A DNA stretch of 35,540 nucleotides from Rhodospirillales bacterium (lineage in GTDB: Bacteria > Pseudomonadota > Alphaproteobacteria > Rhodospirillales > Magnetovibrionaceae), in the NCBI GenBank assembly GCA_024653965.1, contig JANLGW010000131.1, positions 1 through 35,540 on the forward strand, given 5' to 3'. Below are positions 22,232-32,124 of the stretch, in pieces. The first letter of the stretch is position 1. The number at the start of each line of letters is the position of its first letter. The translations under genes were made by a program, and so were the position numbers. The notes under the pieces are model-generated. The model saw nothing but the letters and a program-made list of their open reading frames with translations. It was not told the origin of the DNA and ran no database searches.

Positions 22232-22253
22232 CATGTCCATAAGGGTGCCCGCC

Positions 22254-22484
22254 ATGACCCAGACCACCGTGTTCAAGTCTAATAAGACCCAAGCCATTCG
22301 TCTGGCCAAGGCGGTGGCGTTTCCCGAACATGTTAAAGAGGTCGACGTGGTCAAGGTCGGCTCCGCCCGGCTCGTCACCCCGGTGGGGGGCTCATGGGAC
22401 GCCTTCTTCGACGGCCCACAAACGAGCGACGATTTTCTCACCGCCCGCGCCCAGCCCACCCCCCAGGAGCGCGAGACGATCTAA
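22254..22484 (+). CDS. vapB: VapB-type antitoxin (AbrB-like)
   Basis: 76 residues from ATG 22254, with AAGGGTG about nine bases upstream. The ATG at 22233 lies within the promoter repeat and lacks a Shine-Dalgarno. The N-terminus (MTQTTVFKSNKTQAIRLAKAVAFPEHVKEVDVV) is the swapped-hairpin AbrB/SpoVT fold of VapB: the FKSNKTQAIRLPK-type signature. The C-terminus (WDAFFDGPQTSDDFLTARAQPTPQERE) is the toxin-binding tail. The TAA stop is directly followed by the vapC GTG start. Confidence 0.92.
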   Translation: MTQTTVFKSNKTQAIRLAKAVAFPEHVKEVDVVKVGSARLVTPVGGSWDAFFDGPQTSDDFLTARAQPTPQERETI

Positions 22485-22883
22485 GTGCTCAAATACCTGC
22501 TCGACACCGACATCTGCATTTACGCCATCAAGGCGCGACCCGAGAGCGTGCGCGCCGCCTTCAACGCCAACGCTGGGCGCATGGCAATCTCTGCCGTGAC
22601 GCTCTATGAACTGGCTTTCGGCGCGGAAAACTCACAAAATGTGGAACGCAACTTAGGCGTCGTCGAAGCGTTCGCCGCGCGGCTCGAAGTCCTGCCCTTC
22701 GACGCTGCCGCCGCCGTCCAGGCCGGACAAATCCGCGCCGAACTGGCACGCGCCGGAACGCCCATCGGTGCATATGATCTGATGATCGCCGGGCACGCCC
22801 GCGCGCAAGGGCTGGTTCTCGTCACTAATAATGGGCGCGAGTTCGAGCGAGTGGCTGGACTTAGAATCGAGAATTGGGCTTGA
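22485..22883 (+). CDS. vapC: VapC PIN-domain ribonuclease toxin
   Basis: 132 residues. The GTG start at 22485 touches the vapB stop, so translation is coupled. PIN-domain acidic residues for Mg2+ are present: Asp7 (LLDTDICIYAIK), Glu42 (TLYELAFGAE) and Asp98 (GAYDLMIAGHARAQGL), with the closing VTNNGREFERVAGLRIENW. VapC toxins cut tRNA or rRNA at specific sites; the target is unknown here. The frame is intact, so the pair is probably active. It is tucked between the 271-bp repeat and accA, where it converges with accA. Confidence 0.94.
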   Translation: MLKYLLDTDICIYAIKARPESVRAAFNANAGRMAISAVTLYELAFGAENSQNVERNLGVVEAFAARLEVLPFDAAAAVQAGQIRAELARAGTPIGAYDLMIAGHARAQGLVLVTNNGREFERVAGLRIENWA

Positions 22884-23971: not shown

Positions 23972-24940
23972 TCAATTCCCGGCCAGCGGGTGCGCCGTTT
24001 GCACCAAGCGCTTCAGGCGTTCATCCAAAACGTGGGTGTAAATCTGGGTGGTGGAGATGTCGGAATGGCCCAACATCTGCTGTAAGGCGCGCAAATCCGC
24101 GCCATGCGCCAACAAATGACTGGCGAAGGAATGGCGCAAAACGTGGGGCGAAACCCGCGCCGGGTCCAAATCCGCCTCGACGGCCAATTCCTTCAACAGT
24201 TGAGCAAAGCGCGCCCGGGTGAGGTAACCCTGATGGGCGCGGGAAGGAAACAAATAAGGCGAATCCTTCGCCCCCCCCTTTGCGCCCCCCTTTGCGCTTT
24301 TGCTTTCCCCTTTAGGCAAAAAACGCGCTCGCACGCCTAAATATTCAACGATGGCGTCCTGAGCCGGTTCGGAAAGCGGCACCATGCGCTCTTTGCCACC
24401 CTTGCCACGCACCACCAACATCAGGCCATCACGCGTCACCGCCCGCAACGGCAGGCCCACCAGTTCCGACACCCTGAGCCCGGTGGCATAGAGCACCTCC
24501 ATCAACGCCACCAGACGTTTGCCATCGGCGCCCGCATGGTTGGCGGCGCTGACAAGCAACCGGTCGACTTCTGCTTCGGACAAATATTTGGGCAACGACC
24601 GCCCGGCCTTGGGCGCGTCAATAATAGTGGTGGGATCATCCTCGCGCAGGCGCTCGGAAAACAAAAAGCGAAAGAATTGGCGCAACGCCGAAAGACGTCT
24701 GGCCTGGGTGCGCGGCGCCATGCCGCGACCGGTCAAATGTTTGAGATAGGCGCGGATCAACGCGGCATTTGCATCTTGGGGTGAGTGGCCTTGTTTGCTG
24801 GCAAAAGCGGCAAAGTCGGCCAGATCGCGACGATAGCCTTCCAGCGTATTGGCCGCTGCGCCGCGTTCGGCGGCCAGCATTTCCAAAAACATCTCCACAT
24901 CGCGTGGCAATGCTGCGGTAAGGGTGGCGCGACGACCCAT
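23972..24940 (-). CDS. xerD: tyrosine recombinase XerD
   Basis: 322 residues from ATG 24938-24940; a GTG four codons earlier is possible. It resolves chromosome dimers with XerC at dif. An N-terminal SAM-like core-binding domain ([25 protein letters not shown]) precedes the catalytic domain with Arg156 ([10 protein letters not shown]), Lys near [11 protein letters not shown], His266/Arg269 ([14 protein letters not shown]), His292 (LGHSDIS) and Tyr301 (TTQIYTHV), numbering from this start. An unusual insert of about 15 residues ([17 protein letters not shown]) before the SPYLFPSR strand is encoded by a 12-bp repeat and begins beside a run of eight G on the coding strand. Confidence 0.95.
24271..24296 (-). 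repeat. C8 run and two 12-bp tandem units in xerD
   Basis: Eight C at 24271-24278 (G on the coding strand) run into two perfect copies of CCCCCCTTTGCG (24273-24284 and 24285-24296), encoding the Ala-Lys-Gly-Gly insert. Slippage in the C run would shift the frame of xerD; change in the 12-bp unit would not. Confidence 0.85.
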
Positions 24941-24961
24941 GACGACCCCCACCCCCGCCGT

Positions 24962-26770
24962 TTACAGCCCCGCCGCCACGACGGTTTCCAGCGCCAAGGC
25001 GCGGGCTTCATCGTTCAACCCGATGTTGCGTAGCGCCTTAAGCACCCGGTGAGCGAAAATAGGTTCGACACGCGCGGGCCCGGCGTCGCCCGAAATCACC
25101 AGACTGAGCAGCACCGTTTCACCGATGCGCGCCTGGGACGACGCCCCCTCCAATAAAAACCAGCCGGAAGGATGCGGCGCCGTAACGCTTTGATGCGCAG
25201 GCCCATCCAGCAGCACCAACCAGATATTTTCAGGAACAAACTCGCCCATTGCATCAAAGGTGGAAAACAACATCGCGGCATTTTCCCGCGCGCCCGGAGT
25301 GTCTTTGACAAAATTCCACCACTCGCCAAGGCGATCCATGGTCCAGGAATCAGCTCCGGAAAAGGCCGCCAACCGCGCCATCGGCATCAGTTTTTCCAAC
25401 GCAAGAGCCATTTCCGGATCGCGCCCGGCAGCTTGTTTCAACAGATAAAACCACGGCTCCGCTTCCGATGCATGGCCCGTAACGAGAAGCGCGCGGATCG
25501 CTTCAGGCGCAAACCACGCCAAATCGGAGGACGCTTCAATACCGCTCAACTGCGGCAAAAATGCCCGCGCGGCAGATGCATAACGCCCCTCCGTGCGTGC
25601 CATACTCAAAGCGTGCGACAATGCCTCGGCCTGTGCGGCAGGAACGGTTTGCTCAAGCAAGGCGCGATAAAGTAACGCACGGCTCATCGGTCCAGAGCGT
25701 TTTTCCGCCGCAGTGAGGGGGTTTTTCAATTCGTCGTCGCTAAATTCGATACCGGCGTAAAGCTGACGCAAAGCATCCGTTTCCAATGCACCCGCAGTTT
25801 CTGCGCGTTCCGCCGCTTCCAAACGCAATTCCGCGCCAGCATTTGGACTGGCGGCGACGGCGCGCAGCACACCCGGACGATTGGACGAAAGAACATCGCC
25901 GGGCAATTGCACCTTAGCCGCCCGCGCCAACGCCAGATGCAACGGCGTCGGATCGATCAGGGTTTCCAGCACCGGCGCTTTGCCTGCCGCTTTGTCTTGA
26001 CCGGCAATGATCCGAACCAACTGAAAAAACACCGGATCGTTGACGCCCAATTCTTCCAACAACGAAAGTCCCAAAAGGGCCGCCTGCTGTTGACCTTCCT
26101 GGGCCTGACAGAACGTGAAGGCTTTTTGCCAATAGGGGGTGTCTTGGCTTTCGATGTTCTCATGCGCCATCTGACACGCGTGCGTGACATCGCCGTTCAG
26201 CAGGTGCGTGTCCATTTCGACCTGCAACAAATCTGGGTTGGCGCTAGAACCCGGTACTGTGCCGAGCAATGACGTGACGCCCTGAAATTCCCCCATCGCC
26301 GCCAGCAACTGAGCGCGCAATAAAATCAGCGATCCGGGCTGCCCGCCCTTAGGCACTTCGGCACCGGTTAGCAGCAGGCGACGCATCAAGTCGTGCATGG
26401 CCGGAGACGGCGCCGACACCGGCAATTTGGCCATAAAGGTTTCAATCACCCGCCGGTCGGTCCCCCACCACATGGCTGGGCCGAAACCGCCATTTTCACC
26501 GTTCAATACACCCGCCACATCCGGGTCCACCTGGCCTAAAGGTTCCTGCTCGACTGCGCCGCCCATCCCGGAGGGATTGACTTTCCCGCCCTGAACATCG
26601 ACGGGCGGCTCAAGAGGCGCTTCCATAGGCCGCTGATCCTGACGGGGAGTCTGTGAACCTGTCGGCGACAAATCCACCGGACCGCCTTGCGCAAATGCCT
26701 CGCCGCCCAATAACAGGGCTGTAGCCAAGACGAGCGTGCGGTTAACGCGATTAGCGCGGGAAGCGTTCAT
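24962..26770 (-). CDS. large exported protein of unknown function
   Basis: 602 residues from ATG 26768-26770 (MNASRANRVNRTLVLATALLLGGEAFAQ), a clear signal peptide cleaved near AFA-QG; GAGAGGG lies upstream. A TTG start six codons earlier is less likely. Residues 30-110 are Pro/Gly/Gln-rich and disordered. From about 115 the protein is almost all helical, with paired helices (e.g. LILLRAQLLAAMGEFQGVTSLLG, ALARAAKVQLPGDVL), like a TPR/solenoid scaffold; no exact TPR consensus. Proteins at this place, between aroK and xerD, occur in related alphaproteobacteria, often carrying misleading names such as 'antifreeze glycopeptide polyprotein'. A periplasmic or outer-membrane scaffold is possible. 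The first 20 bases overlap a 46-residue ORF. It lies 21 bases upstream of xerD. Confidence 0.85.
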   Translation of the reverse strand: MNASRANRVNRTLVLATALLLGGEAFAQGGPVDLSPTGSQTPRQDQRPMEAPLEPPVDVQGGKVNPSGMGGAVEQEPLGQVDPDVAGVLNGENGGFGPAMWWGTDRRVIETFMAKLPVSAPSPAMHDLMRRLLLTGAEVPKGGQPGSLILLRAQLLAAMGEFQGVTSLLGTVPGSSANPDLLQVEMDTHLLNGDVTHACQMAHENIESQDTPYWQKAFTFCQAQEGQQQAALLGLSLLEELGVNDPVFFQLVRIIAGQDKAAGKAPVLETLIDPTPLHLALARAAKVQLPGDVLSSNRPGVLRAVAASPNAGAELRLEAAERAETAGALETDALRQLYAGIEFSDDELKNPLTAAEKRSGPMSRALLYRALLEQTVPAAQAEALSHALSMARTEGRYASAARAFLPQLSGIEASSDLAWFAPEAIRALLVTGHASEAEPWFYLLKQAAGRDPEMALALEKLMPMARLAAFSGADSWTMDRLGEWWNFVKDTPGARENAAMLFSTFDAMGEFVPENIWLVLLDGPAHQSVTAPHPSGWFLLEGASSQARIGETVLLSLVISGDAGPARVEPIFAHRVLKALRNIGLNDEARALALETVVAAGL

Positions 26771-26891
26771 CGGGAAGCACCCTCTCAACGGTGGTCACGG
26801 GGGCTGGAATATCCCAGGTGGCGAGGACGACGACACCTCCCCCAATCGCGGCGAGCAATAAGACGAAAATAACGACAGACATCCGTTTCAT
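26751..26891 (-). CDS. 46-residue single-pass membrane peptide
   Basis: From ATG 26889-26891: MKRMSVVIFVLLLAAIGGGV, then VVLATWDIPAPVTTVERVLP and DERFPR, then TAA. One transmembrane helix (residues 5-24) and a short periplasmic tail with WDIPAP and DERFPR motifs. GGAAGG lies upstream. Its stop overlaps the start of the 602-residue exported protein by 20 bases in another frame, so the two are likely co-translated. I recall similar small peptides upstream of this protein in other Rhodospirillales; this is memory, not a search. It may be a conserved partner of the exported protein. Confidence 0.75.
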   Translation of the reverse strand: MKRMSVVIFVLLLAAIGGGVVVLATWDIPAPVTTVERVLPDERFPR

Positions 26892-27033
26892 AAGTTTGGC
26901 GCAACCTTCCAGGTTTTTTTGCGGTTCGATACCGTTATGCTAGGTTTCAAACCTAAGATTCGACGATGGCGATTTTCCGGCAGTATATCGCAAGCCCTGT
27001 GGCTTTCCAGAGATCAATCGCATAAAGGAGAGC

Positions 27034-27582
27034 GTGAACGTGCCCGACACTCGGACAAAACAGCCCAACGTCAACCGTCCCATCGTGCTGATCGGCTTGA
27101 TGGGCGCGGGCAAAAGCTCCGTTGGGCGGCGCTTGGCCAAAAAACTGGGGCTAAGTTTCATCGATTCGGATGACGAAATCGAAAAAGCAGCCGGATGCAC
27201 CATCGAAGACATCTTTGACAGATTCGGCGAAGCCGAGTTCCGCCAGGGCGAAAAACGCGTCATGGAACGCCTGCTGGACGAAGGCCCTATGGTACTGGCC
27301 ACCGGCGGCGGCGCGTTCATGAACTCCGATATCCGCGCCAGAATCTTGGCCAAGGGTACGGCGGTATGGCTCAGGGCCGGGCTAGAGGCCCTGTTCGAGC
27401 GCACATCGAGGCGTGGCGGCAGACCGCTGCTAAAAACGTCAGACCCGCGAAAAACCCTGGAAACCCTGATTAAAGAGCGCTACCCCGTATACGAAGAAGC
27501 GCCTATCATCATCGACACCGACACGGAAACCCTGGACAGCACCGTGGACAGCATCATCGAAGCACTAAGGGCCGACGCATGA
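27034..27582 (+). CDS. aroK: shikimate kinase
   Basis: 182 residues. Phosphorylates shikimate at O3 with ATP in the chorismate pathway. P-loop GLMGAGKSSVG (21-31), shikimate-binding FIDSDDEIE (42-50) with D45/D47, GGGAF (91-95), and a lid arginine near R130 (RGGRPLL). The first GTG (27034) is only three bases after AAAGGAG; a second GTG at 27040 has better spacing and would give 180 residues. aroB starts inside its stop (ATGA overlap), so the two are coupled. It is divergent from the 46-residue ORF with 142 bases between. Confidence 0.94.
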   Translation: MNVPDTRTKQPNVNRPIVLIGLMGAGKSSVGRRLAKKLGLSFIDSDDEIEKAAGCTIEDIFDRFGEAEFRQGEKRVMERLLDEGPMVLATGGGAFMNSDIRARILAKGTAVWLRAGLEALFERTSRRGGRPLLKTSDPRKTLETLIKERYPVYEEAPIIIDTDTETLDSTVDSIIEALRADA

Positions 27583-28733
27583 ACCCGAATTCCCTAACCC
27601 CTAAACCGAGCACGTTGCGCGTGGAGTTGGGCGATCGCGGTTACGACATCGTCGTGGGTGCGGGCCTGATCAACGACGCGGGCGCACGTATAAAACCACT
27701 GCTGAAACGACCGCGCGCGGTGATCATTACCGATACCCAGGTGGCCCCGCATTACTTGGCGCGATTAAGCGCCAGCTTAAAATCGGCGGGCATCGAAGTG
27801 GATGCCATCACCGTGCCTGCGGGCGAGCAGAGCAAGTGCTTTGCGCAACTCGAAAGCCTGACGGAAACCTTGTTGGAAATGAAGGTTGAACGCTCGACCA
27901 CGCTGATCGCGTTGGGCGGCGGCGTGATCGGCGATCTGGTGGGCTTCACCGCCGCCATCACGCTGCGCGGCATGCCCTTCGTGCAGGTTCCCACCACCCT
28001 GTTGGCTCAGGTCGACAGCTCGGTCGGCGGCAAGACCGGCATCAACACGCGATACGGCAAAAATTTAGTGGGCGCATTTTACCAGCCCAAACTGGTGCTG
28101 GCCGACATCGAAACGCTGGAAACGCTAGACCGCCGCCAACTGCTGGCCGGTTATGCCGAAGTGGTAAAATACGGCTTTATCGACGACTTAAACTTCTTCG
28201 AGTGGTTGGAACAAAACGGCAAAACCCTGGTTAATGGCACCCCGGTTAACGAAAAACACGCGTTGCGCCGCCACGCCGTGCTCACCAGTTGCGCCGCCAA
28301 GGCCCGCGTGGTGGCCGAAGACGAACTAGAAGGCGGCAAACGCGCGCTGTTGAACTTAGGCCACACCTTCGGCCACGCATTGGAAGCCGAAACCGGCTAT
28401 GGCGACACCCTGCTGCATGGCGAAGCGGTCGCCATCGGCATGGCCATGGCGTTCGACCTGTCGCACCAATTGGGCCTGTGTTCGGGCCAGGACGCCACGC
28501 GCGCCATCCGGCACATGGCAGACGTCGGCCTGCCCACGGACCTGACCGGCCTAAACACGGCCACCTGGACCACCGATAAATTGATGGACCACATGAGCCG
28601 CGACAAAAAGGTCGAAAGCGGCAAACTTACCTTCATCTTAGCGCGCGGCATCGGCCAAGCCTACATCACCCAAGACGTAACCGAGCAAGCAGTGCGCGAA
28701 CTGCTCACACGCTGGCTCAAGACCCGGAGCTGA
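27579..28733 (+). CDS. aroB: 3-dehydroquinate synthase
   Basis: 384 residues. Cyclises DAHP to 3-dehydroquinate using NAD+ and a metal. Seen: VPAGEQSK, GGGVIGDLVGFTAAITLRGMPFVQVPTTLLAQVDSSVGGKTGIN, the KNLVGAFYQP segment, YAEVVKYGFI, and the metal-binding GHTFGHALE and HGEAVAIGM stretches. The ATG overlaps the aroK TGA by four bases. The CNNM/CBS gene starts 16 bases after it, so aroK–aroB–CNNM/CBS is probably one operon. Confidence 0.97.
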   Translation: MNPNSLTPKPSTLRVELGDRGYDIVVGAGLINDAGARIKPLLKRPRAVIITDTQVAPHYLARLSASLKSAGIEVDAITVPAGEQSKCFAQLESLTETLLEMKVERSTTLIALGGGVIGDLVGFTAAITLRGMPFVQVPTTLLAQVDSSVGGKTGINTRYGKNLVGAFYQPKLVLADIETLETLDRRQLLAGYAEVVKYGFIDDLNFFEWLEQNGKTLVNGTPVNEKHALRRHAVLTSCAAKARVVAEDELEGGKRALLNLGHTFGHALEAETGYGDTLLHGEAVAIGMAMAFDLSHQLGLCSGQDATRAIRHMADVGLPTDLTGLNTATWTTDKLMDHMSRDKKVESGKLTFILARGIGQAYITQDVTEQAVRELLTRWLKTRS

Positions 28734-30175: not shown

Positions 30176-30634
30176 ATGGTCATGCAACGCAACATCATTC
30201 CCGGAATTGTCCGCGAACAGGAAATTATTGCGCTCGATACAACGGCTTCCGTTCACGATGCCGTACAGGCCATGAGCAACCATCGCATTGCGGCCATCGC
30301 CATAACCGACCCCATCACCGGTAATCTGGCGGGCATCGTATCCGAGCGCGACATGACCCATCGTGTCTTGGCCTGTGGCCTCAACCCGCAGTCGACGCGC
30401 TTGGCCGATGTGATGACCGAAAACCCGACAACGCTCCGCCCGGGCGACGATGCGCTGGATGCCGTGGAGCTCATGTTGGTGCGCAACTTCCGCCATCTGC
30501 CGGTGGTCGACGAAACCGGCAAGGTTATCGCCATGGTGTCCATGCGCGATCTGTTAAAAGCGGCGCTGATCGACCTCAAAGTCGATCTGGACGTCACCCA
30601 AGAAGCCGCCTTCACTTCAGAAGCAACGGCTTAA
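30176..30634 (+). CDS. two-CBS-domain protein
   Basis: 152 residues, cytoplasmic, made almost wholly of a CBS pair: residues 9-65 (EIIALDTTASVHDAVQAMSNHRIAAIAITD, AGIVSERDMTHRVLACGL) and 75-135 (VMTENPTTLRPGDDALDAVELMLVRNFRHLPVVDETGKVIAMVSMRDLLK). CBS pairs sense adenine nucleotides or similar ligands; the target is unknown. A 142-base gap separates it from the CNNM gene, so it likely has its own promoter. GAGGGACTAGTCC, including a 10-bp palindrome, precedes the ATG. Its stop shares TTAA with the stop of the convergent RHH gene. Confidence 0.9.
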   Translation: MVMQRNIIPGIVREQEIIALDTTASVHDAVQAMSNHRIAAIAITDPITGNLAGIVSERDMTHRVLACGLNPQSTRLADVMTENPTTLRPGDDALDAVELMLVRNFRHLPVVDETGKVIAMVSMRDLLKAALIDLKVDLDVTQEAAFTSEATA

Positions 30635-30993
30635 AATCTATTCACAGGACGCAATTCGGTGAGTGGACGATTTTTTTTCGCCCCGCCGCCCTGGCTCAAT
30701 GAACCATGACCGGCGCGCATATGGCCGGTATCCGATGCCGCTGCCCGGAAATAGCTTAAAACGTACGTCCGTACCGCAGCAGTGCGACTGGGCCCCGATT
30801 TGTGCGTTTCGATGTGCGTACACAGTTCATGGATGTTCAGGTTTTCACGCGAACACACTTCGTCAAGCGCATCCCAAACATCTTGTTCTAAACGCAGACT
30901 GGTCCGATGCCCGCCAACGGTAACGTTACGGCTCTGCAGACTGCTTTTAATCCTGCCGACCAATTCCCCGCCCTCAACATTTGCCCATAACAA
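30631..30993 (-). CDS. ribbon-helix-helix domain protein
   Basis: 120 residues as read from TTG 30993; a TTG at 30963, with GGGGA just upstream, is an alternative start. The core (SRNVTVGGHRTSLRLEQDVWDALDEVCSRENLNIHELCTHIE) is a ribbon-helix-helix of the RHH_4 type, common as a stand-alone protein in alphaproteobacteria and ending with TAAVRTYVLSYFR. The tail after that is Gly/Arg-rich and disordered. Likely a transcription regulator. No ATG start is available, so expression may be weak. Stop overlaps the CBS gene stop. Confidence 0.82.
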   Translation of the reverse strand: MLWANVEGGELVGRIKSSLQSRNVTVGGHRTSLRLEQDVWDALDEVCSRENLNIHELCTHIETHKSGPSRTAAVRTYVLSYFRAAASDTGHMRAGHGSLSQGGGAKKNRPLTELRPVNRF

Positions 30994-31081: not shown

Positions 31082-31354
31082 TTAAGCGGCCTCCGCCGGC
31101 GTCAGGGTTTGCAGTTCCAGCGCGTGGACATGGTTCGCCATTTCTTCGGCCAAGGCGTCATAAACGAGGCGCTGGCGCTGCACCCGGCTCTTGCCCTCAA
31201 AGGCGCTGGACACGACGATAAGCTTAAAATGGCTTTCGCCTTCGGGATGCGCGCCAGCATGACCGGCGTGACGGGCGGAGTTGTCGATGATCTCCAGACG
31301 TTCAGGGTTCAGTGCGGCCTTCAATTTATTTTCCATCGCGGTACGGATGCGCAT
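31082..31354 (-). CDS. bolA: BolA-family protein
   Basis: 90 residues. BolA proteins pair with monothiol glutaredoxins through a shared [2Fe-2S] cluster and act in iron homeostasis and stress response. The class II KH-like fold is clear: MRIRTAMENKLKAALNPERLEIIDNSARHAGH, SHFKLIVVSSAFEGKSRVQRQRLVYDALAEEMANHVHALELQTLTP, with the conserved HFKL histidine. AAAGGA precedes the ATG. It is divergent from the J-domain gene, the arrangement usual for this class. A tRNA or other gene is not present in the 155-base gap between them. Confidence 0.95.
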   Translation of the reverse strand: MRIRTAMENKLKAALNPERLEIIDNSARHAGHAGAHPEGESHFKLIVVSSAFEGKSRVQRQRLVYDALAEEMANHVHALELQTLTPAEAA

Positions 31355-31509: not shown

Positions 31510-32124
31510 ATGGCCATACAACCACGCAAACAAGGGCTCGAAACCCCGTTCAATTTCAGCACCAAACGTGCAAAAAAGGCGCACGCCTGCGCGCCCCAAT
31601 GCACATGGCCGGGCTGCGCCGACACGGGCGAGTTCAACGCCCCCAAATCCCCGCGCAATCTGGCCGAACACGTATGGCTATGCGCCGAGCACATCCGCGA
31701 ACACAACAAGGCATGGAATTATTTTGAAGGCATGACCGACGCCGAAGTCGAAGCCGTGGTGCGCCACGACACCGTATGGCAGCGCCAAACGTGGAAACTG
31801 GGCGCCAAACCCGGCATCAAGGCCAAGGCCAGCTTCGCCAACGCGCGTTTTCGCGACAGCTTCGGCCTGTTCGACGATTTGGGCGACCACACCCCCGATC
31901 CCAGCGAACGGGCCCTTCCGCCCAATTCCCCCGTCGCCAAGGCCTTCGCCATCATGGACTTGGCCCCGCCGATAACGCTTGAGCAGGTCAAGGCGCGGTA
32001 CAAACAGCTCGCCCGCCGCCACCATCCCGACGCCAACAACGGCGCAAAAGAGGCGGAAGAAAAGTTCAAGGAAGTCGCCACCGCATACCAAGTCGTGGTG
32101 AAATACCTGGAAGGCTGCGCTTAA
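31510..32124 (+). CDS. J-domain (DnaJ-like) protein
   Basis: 204 residues. The J domain is at the C-terminus (about 150-202: DLAPPITLEQVKARYKQLARRHHPDANNG...EEKFKEVATAYQVVVKYL) with the HPD triad at 172-174, which activates DnaK. The N-terminal 130 residues are unlike DnaJ and include a Cys-rich stretch (ACAPQCTWPGCADTGEFNAP, then WLCAEHIREHN; Cys27, 31, 36, 58 and His61) that could bind zinc. J proteins of this shape sit between bolA and cobS in many alphaproteobacteria, and their client is unknown. It precedes cobS by 48 bases. Confidence 0.92.
   Translation: MAIQPRKQGLETPFNFSTKRAKKAHACAPQCTWPGCADTGEFNAPKSPRNLAEHVWLCAEHIREHNKAWNYFEGMTDAEVEAVVRHDTVWQRQTWKLGAKPGIKAKASFANARFRDSFGLFDDLGDHTPDPSERALPPNSPVAKAFAIMDLAPPITLEQVKARYKQLARRHHPDANNGAKEAEEKFKEVATAYQVVVKYLEGCA

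Follow-up and report, generated by a model that had tools for sequence, protein, structure and literature searches.

The question raised by this locus is whether a 46-residue reading frame that runs into the start of a large exported protein is a gene and, if so, whether it serves that protein or has a function of its own. The frame lies in the window, a stretch of 35,540 nucleotides from a Rhodospirillales bacterium (contig JANLGW010000131.1), between a divergent aroK gene and genes encoding an alpha-solenoid protein and XerD (Table 1). We regard the peptide as an accessory protein that crosses the inner membrane once, is ancestral, has a docking tail in the periplasm and was coupled to the solenoid only secondarily, and we put the probability of this reading at roughly 0.55. 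The Alphaproteobacteria include plant symbionts, pathogens and relatives of mitochondria, and a gene conserved across much of the class for which the libraries searched offer no family model deserves further work.

Table 1. Coordinates of the peptide gene, its parts and its neighbours in the window
Feature	Position	Strand	Basis
46-aa single-pass membrane protein ORF	26751..26891	-	translation and homologues; stop codon 26751-26753
Predicted transmembrane helix, residues 2-25, invariant G18	26817..26888	-	AlphaFold2 and 28-row alignment A1
C-terminal tail, residues 26-46, predicted periplasmic	26754..26816	-	alignment A1, pN/pS
20-base overlap with start of downstream gene	26751..26770	-	-20 ATG in 102/112 distinct homologues
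Candidate ribosome-binding region for downstream gene, inside peptide ORF	26775..26788	-	Shine-Dalgarno (SD) match statistics
Exported TPR-like alpha-solenoid, 602 aa, no curated family	24962..26770	-	AlphaFold2, fold search
xerD, next gene after solenoid	23972..24952	-	Phage_integrase 2.5e-41, synteny
aroK, divergent upstream neighbour	27034..27582	+	SKI 1.7e-47, synteny

The minus strand of 26751-26891 translates to MKRMSVVIFVLLLAAIGGGVVVLATWDIPAPVTTVERVLPDERFPR (codons 26891-26754, then the stop); the plus strand of the same interval contains a stop codon and no comparable peptide. An AlphaFold2 model based on 28 homologues (mean pLDDT 84.9), which carries no interaction information, consists of a helix at residues 2-25, in agreement with the one transmembrane helix proposed by the sequence-only reading, and an extended tail. 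In alignment A1 the tail motif is W-D-I-P-A-P...V-E-K/R-V-I/L-P-D-E/D-R-F-P-R. Net charge is +1.3 over residues 1-5 and -0.5 over the tail, in line with an N-in orientation, and we infer that the N-terminus is cytoplasmic and the extended tail of about 20 residues periplasmic.

A single-sequence query recovered a homologue of the peptide at E <= 2.8e-5 in 55 of 60 related genomes, with internal stops in none. Among the five relatives that yielded no clear peptide, G002 and G008 gave weak matches, probably by chance, and G016, G044 and G058 gave none; G058 is a 0.9-Mb genome and the other four assemblies are 73-86% complete. Disruption of the frame in close relatives was thus looked for, and the outcome favours a gene. 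A profile made from A1, applied at E <= 0.01 to a sample of 385 genomes across the Alphaproteobacteria, matched 219 of them (185 of the 315 of good quality), a few of the weakest of the 219 matches being judged chance once their loci were read. Named carriers include Magnetovibrio blakemorei, Hwanghaeella grinnelliae, Azospirillum brasilense, A. halopraeferens and Skermanella aerolata. The ratio pN/pS is 0.37 over the whole peptide (670 pairs); by region it is 0.49 in the helix, 0.23 in tail codons 26-39 and 0.19 in overlapped codons 41-46 (510 pairs), and W26, P29 and P31 are invariant across all 105 coding sequences compared. The sequence-only reading had described motifs as constrained in appearance and had singled out the overlapped codons as a place to measure selection; it is in the tail and in these codons that the ratio is lowest. 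On these comparative grounds, the 46-residue frame is a genuine protein-coding gene under purifying selection, which is strongest in the putative periplasmic tail, and the gene is old within the Alphaproteobacteria but not universal there.

The overlap with the downstream gene was examined at 139 loci, which encode 112 distinct peptides. An ATG lies exactly at -20 for 102 of the 112, and for 94 of the 105 that have a solenoid match at the locus. Conservation of this ATG supports a solenoid start at 26770 (602 aa) over the TTG at 26788, which was used by a mechanical ORF listing and would give 608 aa (24962-26788, minus strand). SD matches of at least 4 nt occur inside the peptide ORF in 63 of 91 homologues, compared with 41.6 expected under random choice of synonymous codons (none of 200 trials reached 63); for matches of at least 5 bases there is no clear excess in the same 91 homologues (11 vs 8.3 expected, a level reached in 48 of 200 trials). 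These patterns indicate that the overlap is ancient and that the peptide codons are biased to supply the ribosome-binding site of the next gene. The 20-base overlap claimed from the sequence, for which no strand had been given, is thus confirmed on the minus strand from the positions of stop and ATG, and the tight coupling claimed with it holds both in the position of the ATG and in the SD codon bias. It is possible in principle that the overlap itself forces the tail sequence; this is contradicted by three observations. The 20 shared bases vary far more at third positions of the peptide frame (equivalent to second positions of the other frame) than at its first and second positions, so that constraint there acts on the peptide frame. 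Tails are still recognisable, for example as LPDSRFPR or IPNDRFPR, at the ten loci that lack the overlap (L034, L045, L049, L056, L057, L058, L074, L107, L122 and L124), and they are also found where the locus has no solenoid. The locus also illustrates clearly how a 20-base gene overlap can stay fixed for a long time with a ribosome-binding site written inside constrained coding sequence.

The downstream protein has a signal-like N-terminus ending in AFAQ, of which AQ is conserved, and its AlphaFold2 model (mean pLDDT 89.8) is an all-helical superhelix, as in TPR-type solenoid proteins, with which residues 101-585 align in VIA-align. A fold search returned only generic TPR/PPR-type solenoids, with Z up to 9.5, and indicated no function; chain D of the BAM complex aligns at Z of about 8.3-9.0, and for helical repeats a VIA-align Z below about 13 possibly reflects a common arrangement only. 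The 602-residue protein had no match in Pfam, NCBIfam, PHROGs or PDB sequences; Pfam TPR models match the window solenoid nowhere, and TPR_19 is touched in two of 54 homologues (best 1.4e-4). Conservation is higher in the peptide than in the solenoid at all 54 loci compared (median identity 58% vs 41%). The gene order aroK, peptide, (solenoid), xerD is conserved.

The sequence-only reading had taken the peptide for a conserved partner of the 602-residue protein. In its strictest form, in which the peptide is a dedicated membrane anchor or cofactor of the solenoid and a TPR-like groove binds the tail, this is the strongest of the alternatives, although we hold it only tentatively and think the odds are against it. 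TPR-like folds often bind extended peptides, and the solenoid combines such a superhelix with a signal-like N-terminus. The overlap and the embedded SD speak for a partnership, as does co-occurrence: within the 385-genome sample, 190 genomes have both peptide and solenoid, 29 the peptide only, 61 the solenoid only and 105 neither (Fisher's exact test, P = 6e-25, a value that is overstated because the genomes are related). Moreover, when eight loci from the 61 solenoid-only genomes were read, a diverged one-helix peptide was found to precede the solenoid in five (L153, L154, L155, L157 and L158); none was found in L156 or L159, and L152 lies at a contig end.

What argues against a dedicated partner is that loci lacking the solenoid gene still retain the tail. 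Of the 29 peptide-only genomes, 17 show the peptide immediately ahead of xerD with no solenoid at the locus, and two (G269 and G358) are reduced genomes. Five others (G092, G220, G317, G228 and G071) have a diverged solenoid missed by the genome search, the matches in G338 and G229 are chance, and G188, G065 and G170 (contig end) are ambiguous. Peptide and tail motif are also kept without a solenoid gene at the locus in Azospirillum halopraeferens (L068) and Skermanella aerolata (L086). In 21 solenoid-less tails, V, I or T stands at the tenth position in 19, an I-P-like pair is present in 18, F, L or I stands at the nineteenth position in 17 and W-x-x-P-x-P is present in 14, with losses of tail residues mostly in small genomes. 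In a repeat solenoid search scoring every candidate, 22 genomes gave nothing, G092 included despite its diverged copy; as that copy was found by an ORF-level profile and missed by the genome search, it is only at the locus that the solenoid is directly seen to be absent. The proposed partnership thus stands as far as coupling and co-occurrence go, but the peptide is not always accompanied by the solenoid. Its retention at solenoid-less loci and in the reduced genomes means that its core role cannot be serving the 602-residue protein alone, and that it probably has its own function.

We therefore return to an accessory protein of the inner membrane that was coupled to the solenoid later. Most likely, the helix would sit in the inner membrane and the peptide, by analogy with other small membrane subunits, would act as an accessory subunit or docking factor, and its extended tail (W-D-I-P-A-P ... 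V-E-K-x-I-P-x-x-x-F) may clip onto an inner-membrane or envelope complex encoded elsewhere. In most lineages the peptide frame would also have become the translational coupler for the exported TPR-like solenoid. Since the start codon and ribosome-binding site of the solenoid lie inside peptide codons, both proteins would be made together and probably belong to one envelope process; the persistence of the coupling suggests that the solenoid is probably a frequent co-worker and not the sole partner.

Some further matches within the class are of less certain standing. When 25 class genomes, mostly with weak matches, were searched again for their loci, 20 matches were found to adjoin aroK, the solenoid or xerD, three (L181, L183 and L184) were judged chance and two (L165 and L175) are ambiguous. 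L165, from a 1.7-Mb genome (G065), has a WGIPAP-like peptide (YVGIPAP) next to Fe-S-cluster-like genes (ferredoxin/HscA-like ORFs by eye) instead of aroK/xerD, and is either a relocated gene or chance. One assembly with 5% contamination (G241) has two pairs of peptide and solenoid (on C52 and C119), representing either a duplicated pair or a mixed genome.

The two reduced genomes indicate that the peptide can outlast its neighbours. G269 (1,518,636 bases) and G358 (1,481,191 bases) are single contigs, 99% complete, and belong to the same genus as the 5.6-Mb genome G435. Searches for XerD, AroK and the solenoid gave no match in either, and matched the control G435 at 1e-105, 1e-60 and 4e-137, respectively. 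At their loci (L146 and L147) a tblastn search in which the window proteins and 72 solenoids served as queries hit nothing but the peptide and HlyC; aroB, aroK, the solenoid and xerD were not found there. The peptide is located between hlyC/corC and, by eye, a COQ9-like ORF on the opposite strand. The peptide frame is intact in both genomes and has no indel between them, compared with 1 to 41 gapped bases in each flanking window; pN is 0.16 and pS 0.73, with differences distributed 12/5/23 over the three codon positions. GC content is 41% and 38% in the peptide (G269 and G358) vs 26-31% in the flanks, and nucleotide identity, at 70%, is not above that of all flanks (57-71%). That the frame is open counts for little by itself, as 54% of frames stay open after 20 random substitutions and 32% after 40; it is the low pN/pS, the GC content and the missing indels that carry the argument. 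By these measures the peptide is under purifying selection in both genomes even though aroK, the solenoid and xerD are undetected. Survival in genomes stripped of the neighbouring genes implies a function separable from theirs, and makes a search for the partner worthwhile in any alphaproteobacterium amenable to experiment.

If our identification is right, G269 and G358 are Ca. Endolissoclinum faulkneri L5 and L2. For these a paper reports genomes of 1.51 and 1.48 Mb with 56-57% coding sequence, a divergence 6-31 million years ago and the loss of FtsZ (PMC3851785). There is also a bolder account, to which we give a rather small chance: the peptide could be an ancestral one-helix protein and an overlooked core component of the alphaproteobacterial inner membrane, with a tail that docks on an essential envelope or respiratory complex; it would be kept in degenerate symbionts and maybe have a mitochondrial counterpart, and the solenoid would be a later coupled addition. 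Were this true, the peptide would have been kept despite an undetected solenoid, aroK and XerD and, as published and if the identification is right, a lost FtsZ.

It is very unlikely that the hydrophobic part is instead a cleaved signal sequence from which a short periplasmic peptide is released. The -3/-1 rule formally permits a cut after residue 19 in 92 of 102 peptides or after residue 20 in 71; however, no conserved cleavage site was found at the junction of helix and tail, where at most 16 of the 102 allow a cut after residues 22-30 (after residue 24 in six, residue 25 in 16 and residues 26-30 in none), and in diverged members such as those at L157 and L158 the hydrophobic stretch continues unbroken for about 20 residues. 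We give even less credence to the idea that the ORF is translated just to set downstream expression and its product is inert. The downstream gene does have its SD and start codon within the ORF, as this would require, but constraint on the amino acids (pN/pS 0.19-0.49, depending on the region) goes most of the way to refuting the idea; in addition, the tail is kept where there is no overlap, the downstream gene varies between lineages and the peptide survives where its neighbours are gone. A role in XerD function or chromosome-dimer processing, for which one may cite the 17 solenoid-less loci where the peptide adjoins xerD, is equally improbable, given that XerD is cytoplasmic and the tail predicted periplasmic, and that the peptide is kept in the two reduced genomes without an XerD-like match.

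In a search for the peptide beyond the class, 30 of 398 genomes in a phylum-wide sample matched at E <= 0.01, of which 23 belong to the same class and seven to other classes. The loci of these seven (L194-L200) were all read and the matches judged chance: in L194-L197 (family f216) they are short frames that contain a DLPAPVSPVNT-like string, and neither the solenoid nor xerD or aroK has a match there, and in L198-L200 the matches are parts of long ORFs. For L194 and L195, the surroundings of which were listed, the short frames are antisense to or beside a RecN-like ORF, by eye. Searches of plasmids for the peptide, and of Rfam with 26000-27600, gave no match. The window peptide had nothing above curated cut-off in Pfam, NCBIfam or PHROGs and no significant match among PDB sequences; eight further peptides had only sub-threshold matches. 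Literature searches for the gene or its peptides, literal peptide strings included, brought up no paper on it among the results listed. The family appears to be unnamed in the libraries and literature searched.

Small one-helix membrane proteins found by conservation are an already known kind. Accessory subunits of the CydX and KdpF type have 30-50 residues, one helix and a short tail, are easily missed by gene callers and are encoded together with their own complex. Unlike these, the peptide has neighbours (aroK, the solenoid and xerD) that form no membrane complex, and it outlives them. Similar ORFs may occur at the same site in genomes without a listed peptide. Among 12 such genomes, a one-helix ORF lies between aroK and xerD or the solenoid in eight (G339, G515, G476, G416, G498, G128, G480 and G212), and none was found at the aroK/xerD site in the other four (G121, G168, G519 and G085). 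Rhizobia-like peptides with the pattern MP[ST]LFRF...VxP...IPxxKF (L208, L210-L213, L215 and L217) match the window peptide in size and in position between aroK and xerD, and have a tail of the form V-x-P...I-P-x-x-F/L like that of the window family; no solenoid profile match was found at their loci. Tail-to-tail comparison of the two groups by hhalign is weak (probability 26%, E = 7e-4), so that common descent is at most suggested.

By description, the peptide also resembles SEP20 of Sinorhizobium meliloti, a 46-aa protein with one predicted transmembrane helix that is reported to be conserved in Alphaproteobacteria and to be produced (PMC10117765). Its locus differs, being between ctaB and ctaG in the cta oxidase cluster, and the passages cited mention neither aroK nor xerD (PMC10117765).

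Elsewhere in the window, the plus strand at 22233-22883 carries an 83-aa ORF that has no Pfam match and, after it, a gene for a PIN-domain protein (PF01850, 8.5e-22); located between chromosomal housekeeping genes, the pair looks like a VapBC-type toxin-antitoxin system. More ordinary neighbours are genes encoding a ribbon-helix-helix protein (30631-30993, minus strand), a BolA-like protein (31082-31354, minus strand) and a DnaJ-domain protein (31510-32124, plus strand).
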